Of a stretch of 37,183 nucleotides of DNA, positions 17,594-27,765 are shown one piece after another. The notes beneath the pieces are model-generated. The model was not told the DNA's origin and ran no database searches. It saw only the letters and a program-made list of their open reading frames with translations. Origin of the DNA: Oscillospiraceae bacterium. GTDB taxonomy: Bacteria; Bacillota; Clostridia; Oscillospirales; Oscillospiraceae. The stretch spans positions 1-37,183 of the forward strand of contig JAFVVH010000017.1 of the NCBI GenBank assembly GCA_017502285.1. Direction: 5' to 3'. Made by a program: the position numbers and the translations under genes. Numbering within the stretch: the stretch's first letter is position 1; each line of letters begins with the position of its first letter.

Positions 17594-17598
17594 AAAAC

Positions 17599-17827
17599 TA
17601 TGGGCTGTTTCCTGCGGGAAACGGCCCATACAGCTTGGCAAAAAATTTTTTGCCAAGCTGTTGCAAATTTTGAACTTTAAAAAGTCCAAAATTTGGTTTG
17701 ATTAAACGCGAAAGACACCCCTCCTGGGTTTCTTTCACACTATCTTCCTTCCCGAAAAATAAGTATTTTTGTGCTTTTTGTAATCTGCTGACTACGGGCC
17801 GCCTCCCCCAGGAGACGGCCCATAGTC
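17599..17827 (+). repeat. Dispersed structured repeat, copy 1 (hairpin stack)
   Basis: Four successive inverted repeats and a conserved core fill the sipL-spoIVA gap. Hairpin A is at 17599-17630 (14-bp stem, one wobble). A perfect 30-bp palindrome (CAGCTTGGCAAAAAA arm) is at 17631-17660. An AT-rich hairpin (CAAATTTTGAACTTT arm) is at 17664-17695. A core at 17705-17748 is identical for 44 bp to copy 2 and contains a hairpin with a CTCCT loop at 17710-17736. Hairpin B is at 17790-17827 (17-bp stem, two mismatches). The segment 17692-17751 matches the reverse complement of 27611-27670 at 57 of 60 positions. Hairpin B ends on the -35 box of the spoIVA promoter. I do not recognise a named family. 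Confidence 0.85.
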
Positions 17828-27542: not shown

Positions 27543-27545
27543 AAG

Positions 27546-27765
27546 ACCCGGCATCCAAAATGGAAGCCGGGTTGAGGCTGTCAAAAAACACGGAACATGC
27601 TCATCAACAGGAGGGAAGATAGTGTGAAAGAAACCCAGGAGGGGTGTCTTTCGCGTTCAATCAATCCAAATTTTGAACTTTTTTAAAGGTTCAAAATTTG
27701 CAACAGCTTGTCGAAAAGACTTTTTCGACAAGCTGGACCCGGCATCCATTTTGGATGCCGGGTCC
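27546..27765 (-). repeat. Dispersed structured repeat, copy 2 (hairpin stack)
   Basis: This is the same architecture as the sipL-spoIVA element, in inverted orientation. Read on the - strand from the recombinase stop, the parts are as follows. Outer hairpin is at 27735-27765 (perfect 14-bp stem). The CAGCTTG hairpin is at 27704-27735 (perfect 14-bp stem, 4-nt loop). The CAAATTTTG hairpin is at 27667-27700. The 44-bp identical core is at 27614-27657. A second outer hairpin is at 27546-27572 (12-bp stem, one mismatch) and ends beside the amidase gene. The two outer hairpins resemble each other (both ACCCGGC..GCCGGGT) but not those of copy 1. The CAGCTTG stem differs from copy 1 at paired positions in a way that keeps pairing (GGCA/TGCC against GTCG/CGAC). 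Confidence 0.85.

Follow-up and report, generated by a model that had tools for sequence, protein, structure and literature searches.

A short dispersed repeat bordered by duplicated stem-loops in Oscillospiraceae genomes, probably a MITE of an IS1182-type system that inserts in terminators

The window, that is, the whole stretch of 37,183 nucleotides analysed here, is contig C11 of an Oscillospiraceae assembly of 1.49 Mb (83 contigs, 78% complete), and from its sporulation genes and one named relative (Eubacteriales bacterium MAG) we infer a clostridial spore former as the host. A block of hairpins occurs in it twice, between the genes for SipL and SpoIVA (copy 1) and between those for an Amidase_6 protein and a tyrosine recombinase (copy 2; Pfam assignments), as detailed in Table 1. 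Local alignment of the two loci scored 184, whereas 200 letter shuffles gave 25 at most, and folding of both regions, outer hairpins included, gave z values of -13.8 and -13.0 against dinucleotide shuffles. The composite block reported at these loci in a preliminary description was real, and its 44-bp identical core was recovered as the longest exact match (44 nt, 17705-17748 against 27614-27657, on opposite strands), while the best ungapped 60-nt match comprised 58 identical positions instead of the 57 counted there. The parts follow the same order, as had been described, if one copy is read on the other strand, the copies being mutually inverted. The outer hairpins, which had been assigned to the element, are alike within one copy and unlike between copies, and represent the duplicated host target. 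A terminator scan flagged one hairpin at copy 2 and nothing at copy 1.

Table 1. Features of the two copies of the repeat in the window.
Feature	Position	Strand	Basis or remark
Copy 1, first duplicated host hairpin	17597..17630		3 nt past sipL stop codon; flank match to 17791-17824 scores 28, between-copy 99th percentile 25
Copy 1 element, 160 nt	17631..17790	- (core orientation)	between the two hairpin copies
Copy 1 hp3, right end as palindrome CAGCTTGGCAAAAAATTTTTTGCCAAGCTG	17631..17660	-	sequence; family end consensus AGCnTGTCgAAAAA
Copy 1 hp2, palindrome CAAATTTTG...CAAAATTTG	17664..17695	-	sequence
Copy 1 conserved core module	17688..17761	-	R1 88.8 bits, E 4.2e-17 (copy itself part of model)
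Copy 1 hairpin hp1	17708-17738	-	within core
Copy 1 purine-rich GGGAAGGAAGATA	17741-17753	-	within core
Copy 1 left end, degenerate	17771..17790	-	sequence; left-end pattern not found in copy 1
Copy 1, second duplicated host hairpin	17791..17824		upstream of spoIVA
Copy 2, first duplicated host hairpin	27545..27572		direct repeat D4 with 27736-27763, 86%; flank score 36
Copy 2 element, 163 nt	27573..27735	+	inverted relative to copy 1
Copy 2 left end GAGGCTGTCAAAAAAC	27574..27589	+	sequence; element left-end consensus AGnCTGTCgAnAAA, IS1182 left end AGCCTGTCGAAAAA
Copy 2 conserved core	27601..27674	+	R1 84.5 bits, E 3.7e-16 (copy itself part of model)
Copy 2 hp1	27624-27654	+	within core
Copy 2 hp2	27667..27700	+	sequence
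Copy 2 hp3, right-end palindrome CAGCTTGTCGAAAAGACTTTTTCGACAAGCTG	27704..27735	+	sequence
Copy 2, second duplicated host hairpin	27736..27763		loop TTTT = reverse complement of first copy's AAAA; terminator-like on + strand

Read in the orientation of the core (minus strand for copy 1, plus strand for copy 2), the element runs from the left end AGnCTGTCgAnAAA through a spacer, a purine-rich stretch GGAGGGAAAGATA, the hairpin hp1 (GTGAAAG...CTTTCAC) and a short linker to the hairpins hp2 and hp3, with the host hairpins outside; hp3 is the right end doubled to a palindrome. In a collection of 118 distinct copies from different genomes (handles G) and loci (handles L), hp2 was present in 115 (75 distinct 5' arms) and hp3 in 109 (72 distinct 5' arms). 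The hairpin-to-hairpin length had a median of 162 nt and a range of 110-195 nt (n = 73, the set of 76 copies with duplicated flanks described below minus three with matches under 20 nt). In these 73 copies the end consensus was AGnCTGTCgAnAAA (62 copies) and AGCnTGTCgAAAAA (68 copies), which form imperfect inverted repeats; because a loose pattern of the expected end served to locate them, the consensus leans toward that pattern. The repeat is, in sum, short, dispersed, multicopy, devoid of a transposase gene and bounded by terminal inverted repeats, as expected of a MITE.

The copy count by nucleotide and covariance-model searches that the preliminary description had proposed returned many copies. 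With copy 1 as the blastn query, six distinct copies were found in the window genome, where two had been noted, and matches were obtained in nine of the 64 genomes of the genus, its own genome counted; the counter-case of that description, two copies only and none in relatives, did not materialize. A covariance model, R1, based on 30 core sequences and a 13-bp hairpin supplied by the analyst, matched 72 of 400 same-family genomes, spread over 33 of 106 genera, the per-genome counts being lower bounds (at most 12 candidates scored per genome). A class-wide sample yielded two R1-positive genomes out of 391, the window genome and one of the same family, under stricter filters by which weak matches may be lost. 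A phage origin was dropped after a 77-nt stretch found no match in a phage collection and two exact 31-nt core variants found none among viral contigs, searches in which divergent copies would be missed.

Other arrangements were recorded as well. The window genome carries a second mini-element (L053, G000:C75:33806-34006) with similar ends, another interior and an exact duplicate of AAATCCCCCATCCGTTTGGATGGGGGATTT flanking it. The core occurs with other ends in L012 and L033-L035, flanked by other repeated hairpins, of the type GCAAAAGAACTTTSTGCGAAACTTCGTTTCGCC in L033-L035. In four G083 loci (L286, L288, L290 and L292) the core hairpin is combined with other downstream hairpins and lacks the usual ends, and in L286 the core adjoins a tRNA-like sequence (by eye). 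In L014 and L017 the left flank of the element recurs downstream as a long direct repeat (scores 113 and 139).

The duplication of the host hairpins was evaluated by scoring each left flank against the right flank of its own copy and, for comparison, against those of every other copy; L152, which is cut short, was left out, leaving 117 copies. The own-flank score exceeded the between-copy 99th percentile (25) in 76 copies and the 99.9th percentile (48) in 43, and the remaining 41 did not exceed the 99th percentile and showed no flank duplication. Five of the six copies of the window genome were above the 99th percentile, and in an earlier round with fewer copies 10 of 19 were. The matches were mostly stem-loops of 20-40 nt. 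The 76 positive copies include some atypical ones (L012 and L033-L035, with a different repeat on both sides, and L030, with 13 nt only) and others with partial matches or matches over neighbouring repeats (L146, L159 and L023), and orthologous copies in close species (e.g. L020 and L022) were counted separately. Four T directly followed the right hairpin in 29 of the 73 copies and the left hairpin in seven, whereas four A preceded the left hairpin in 25 and the right one in four, an asymmetry expected if insertion at the foot of the stem-loop split one terminator. Gene context was determined for 116 loci with a crude gene caller, whose codon model was seeded with five Pfam-named genes: 39 lay between convergent genes, 34 were co-directional with the core, 25 anti-directional, nine divergent and nine incomplete, and the median gap from the 3' side of a gene was about 37 nt (element boundaries approximate). 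This context fits terminators as targets. According to PMC9208149, in the passages available, IS1182 elements are over-represented between convergent genes.

For six copies the predicted pre-insertion joint, consisting of the left flank, one hairpin and the right flank, was assembled and searched in the 64 genomes of the genus. Whole-joint matches were obtained for L031 (G030 and G006, 94% each), L020 (G006, 93%) and L021 (G060, 91%; G030, 88%), and for L026 a match covered most of the joint (G030, 85%; G060, 83%). Alignment of these four joints revealed a single hairpin in the close relatives; G058 and G040, which are more distant, were diverged in the hairpin region itself. Among the matches listed for the L036 joint, the long ones in G006 and G030 were split into two parts separated by about 160 nt, which suggests that these sites are occupied; for L016 the sole listed match across the joint was of 73% (G040) and was left unaligned. 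A target duplication in 76 of the 117 copies was accompanied by aligned empty sites for four of the six joints tried.

The loops of the paired hairpins could be scored in 55 of the 76 copies, and were direct in 44, inverted in ten and ambiguous in one; L023, among the ten, was an alignment artefact, and the clear cases were L004 and L006 (window genome), L155, L182 and L210. Simple gap repair does not yield inverted loops; they could be flipped if small loops invert within palindromes, or if a hairpin is transferred in the course of insertion. At L031 the hairpin of the empty site is identical to the right copy, and the left copy was changed with its pairing largely kept. Such paired changes, together with the inverted loops, show local editing of palindromes, as would be the case if composite terminators had grown in place by slippage or gene conversion, which would duplicate hairpins round a resident core without transposition. 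That explanation is nevertheless very improbable, given that the same element of about 160 nt sits in different terminators of one genome, that relatives have empty sites and that autonomous ISs leave the same footprint.

These ISs belong to the IS1182 family. In G029, a genome of the same genus assembled in one contig, IS1182-family elements were identified by PF13751 and NF033551 (394 bits, cut-off 270), and the end CAGCTTGTCAAARAA was found on both sides of seven of 11 loci and on one side of the other four, with up to two mismatches allowed; like hairpins were seen by eye on both sides of three of the 11 copies (L070, L071 and L073). Flanks also matched across different G029 copies (L068/L069, L062/L064 and L066/L074, by eye), which suggests recombination between these copies. 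A tblastn search with the G029 transposase gave matches in 21 of the 64 genomes of the genus, of which G007 had at least 25. Where both ends of the G007 IS copies were found (n = 23), the flanking hairpin was duplicated in 16 and the hairpins were unlike in seven, and one IS in G365 likewise had such ends and, as judged by eye, a hairpin in duplicate. The G007 IS end consensus, AGCCTGTCGAAAAA and AGCTTGTCGAAAAA, is similar but not identical to that of the element, and we counted the ends as shared. Among further elements scanned, seven of eight relatives at about 30% identity lacked such ends and L227 gave a two-mismatch match only, and the G137 fragments L226 and L230 (58% and 39%) were also devoid of them. 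A location of the core inside the IS1182 elements was rejected, as it was absent from the 23 IS loci searched; no core match was detected in G007 either (blastn and R1), for all its transposase copies.

Because ends and footprint are shared with IS1182 elements, mobilization in trans by a transposase of this family is our reading. It is rather unlikely, though worth weighing, that the repeat is the same kind of mobile element served by some other enzyme, with similar ends and hairpin targets. The transposase searches, which covered PF13751, PF01609 and tblastn with P0001, found no IS1182 transposase in the window genome (78% complete), in 10 of 12 carriers at E <= 0.001, including the one-contig G005 and G221 and the two-contig G187, or in nine of 16 carriers at E <= 1e-10. 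PF01609 was above its cut-off in two of 13 carriers, with no DDE_Tnp_1 match in 11 of the 13, and G326 (72% complete) had at least 11 copies of the element, equal in core score, and gave no hit for IS1182. The transposase was present in the carriers G029, G365 and G342, and hits cut by contig ends occurred in G030, G288 and G430. Multicopy ISs are often lost from short-read assemblies, and such loss and the hits at contig ends could account for the missing IS in drafts, but not in the one-contig genomes. The similar ends and the same whole-hairpin footprint of the IS1182 copies in G007, G029 and G365 argue for the IS1182 transposase over another enzyme.

The core hairpin, hp1, was examined in 94 distinct sequences from 100 loci, in which 94.3% of the cells pair. 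Six of its 13 pairs were changed on both sides (shuffle mean 3.9; 4/500 shuffles reached six), 55 cells carried double changes (shuffle mean 10.8; 0/500 reached this value) and the covariation score was 0.173 (shuffle mean 0.094; 0/500), dropping to 0.027-0.066 when the partner was slid. Further pair types (n = 11) were not above the shuffle mean (11.7), one of the 13 pairs was unpaired in 66 of the 94 sequences, and the first 30 core sequences had shown one pair with double changes. Since the sequences are related and their alignment had been fitted to the model, these figures overstate independence. One pair was U-G in 42 of the 94 sequences and unpaired in one, by which one hp1 strand appears favoured, and G-U outnumbered A-C by 59 to 3 in hp1, but not clearly in hp2 (12 to 8) or hp3 (16 to 6), counts that are not independent. 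These observations point to a single-strand role of hp1; this hairpin probably serves in recognition or confers stability, one of its strands being the one that is read.

The covariation of hp1, with 55 double-change cells that no shuffle reached, the favoured strand and the strong folding of both window regions would also be found if the block were a structured RNA with a host function, either a 3'-UTR module or a small RNA, and its repeats paralogous RNA genes with their own terminators. We consider this unlikely: the target hairpin is duplicated and empty sites exist, a sigma-70-type promoter pattern was found at neither window copy, and the loci showed no preferred orientation with respect to genes (34 co-directional against 25 anti-directional, p = 0.30, with the crude gene caller), which speaks against the 3'-UTR regulatory module put forward in the preliminary description as a primary identity. 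Its small-RNA option kept a covarying core hairpin in its favour, and this part may have an RNA or single-strand role, but no named Rfam family could be assigned, as none matched the window at the gathering threshold, and a full-length match to the Bacteroides sRNA BTnc231 (L146:1487-1638, one of six loci tested) was sub-threshold (30.3 bits, gathering score 80.4). A SAM riboswitch above its gathering score at L157:67-158 is unrelated to the element. An anti-Shine-Dalgarno sRNA, considered for the CUCCU loop that the window copies show on one of their strands, was rejected because the loop varies (GTCAG, ATCAG, AGGAG and others). Candidate structured RNAs have been compiled from human microbiomes, many of the palindromic ones being predicted terminators (PMC8040213, available passages).

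The same core could conceivably be translated, since a GGAGG-like, Shine-Dalgarno-like purine-rich stretch lies about 8 nt ahead of a GTG in many copies, the GTG is present in 105 of the 118 copies, and a mini-ORF of about 11-20 codons would follow. Its changes, however, track base pairing and not codons (GAA with TGT against GGG with TCC), and in G326 the GTG is replaced by GCG throughout (11 copies, L201-L211), the pair being retained as C-G, which makes a coding role highly improbable.

The analysis shows the block to be a dispersed repeat with the target hairpin on both sides of most copies examined, single-hairpin empty sites, and ends like those of hairpin-duplicating IS1182 elements of the same genus. 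Many copies, target duplication, empty sites and IS-like ends bear out the miniature mobile element that the preliminary description had listed among its options, and the element is probably a non-autonomous MITE of about 160 nt that belongs to an IS1182-type system and inserts in the stem-loops of intrinsic terminators. In the mechanism we propose, an IS1182-type transposase supplied in trans would act on the element and, on both strands, join its 3' ends to the 5' feet of the target stem-loop, which may be extruded as a cruciform, and gap repair would then copy the whole hairpin, as in pathway b of PMC5678879. Against this reading stand the carriers with no transposase match, the missing core match in the IS1182-rich G007, the copies of repeat and IS with unlike or unduplicated flanking hairpins, the inverted loops, and the absence of the core from the 23 IS1182 loci. 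The outer copy retains the terminator T-run where there is one, so that termination may survive, and this could account for the tolerance of an insertion between, for example, sipL and spoIVA. The occurrence of hp1 with other ends (L012 and L033-L035) and outside the usual architecture in G083 is the basis for viewing it as an independent module; as a tentative idea, hp1 and its purine-rich 5' flank might constitute an RNA or single-stranded DNA signal for transposition or for the host, and might form with the hairpin-duplicating IS1182 branch a hairpin-recognizing DDE system, whose flipped loops would record hairpin intermediates.

REP and BIME elements are extragenic palindromes moved by RAYT transposases; the element shares with them the extragenic palindromes and differs in being a unit of about 160 nt with end repeats and a duplicated target hairpin. 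Closer parallels are the staphylococcal IS1272 and TnSha1, which have an IS1182-family transposase, terminal inverted repeats of about 16 bp and sequence-independent stem-loop targets, several of them confirmed terminators (PMC5678879, PMC4923244). They differ in that all or part of the target stem-loop is removed: IS1272 replaces inverted repeats (PMC5678879), and for both elements part of the hairpin was deleted, with no duplication (PMC4923244), whereas the whole stem-loop is found here on both sides of IS copies and MITE alike. The replacement of a stem-loop typical of IS1272 was thus not the outcome at our loci. The figure of PMC5678879 includes a pathway b by which the stem-loop would be duplicated, with one copy at each end, and for IS1272 a different pathway was proposed. 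The MITEs of ISMac2 in Methanosarcina acetivorans (160 and 169 bp) are likewise short, non-autonomous, of similar length and ascribed to an IS1182-family IS (PMC3852290), but the tabulated values of 26 and 4, and 25 and 0, which we take as repeat and target-duplication lengths, are unlike ours, the available passages mention no hairpin target, and the word terminator does not occur in the text. ISPse1 of Paracoccus also belongs to the IS1182 family and has 16-bp terminal repeats (PMC3281130), but differs in being tabulated with a 4, which we read as a duplication of 4 bp of the target; this indicates that the family is not uniform in behaviour. Neither whole-hairpin duplication by an IS1182 element nor the present repeat was described in the titles and abstract openings searched, few of them from subscription papers; within that literature, what is new is the outcome of insertion, the group of hosts and the conserved core, the general kind of element being known already.

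The element bears on how a DDE transposase can choose hairpins independently of their sequence. Since the staphylococcal IS1272 removes its target hairpin and the branch described here duplicates it, the two outcomes can be compared, with many natural and empty sites at hand. In these genomes, like terminators in pairs, or hairpins of composite build, are often the mark of an insertion, and this affects the annotation of terminators and candidate RNAs.
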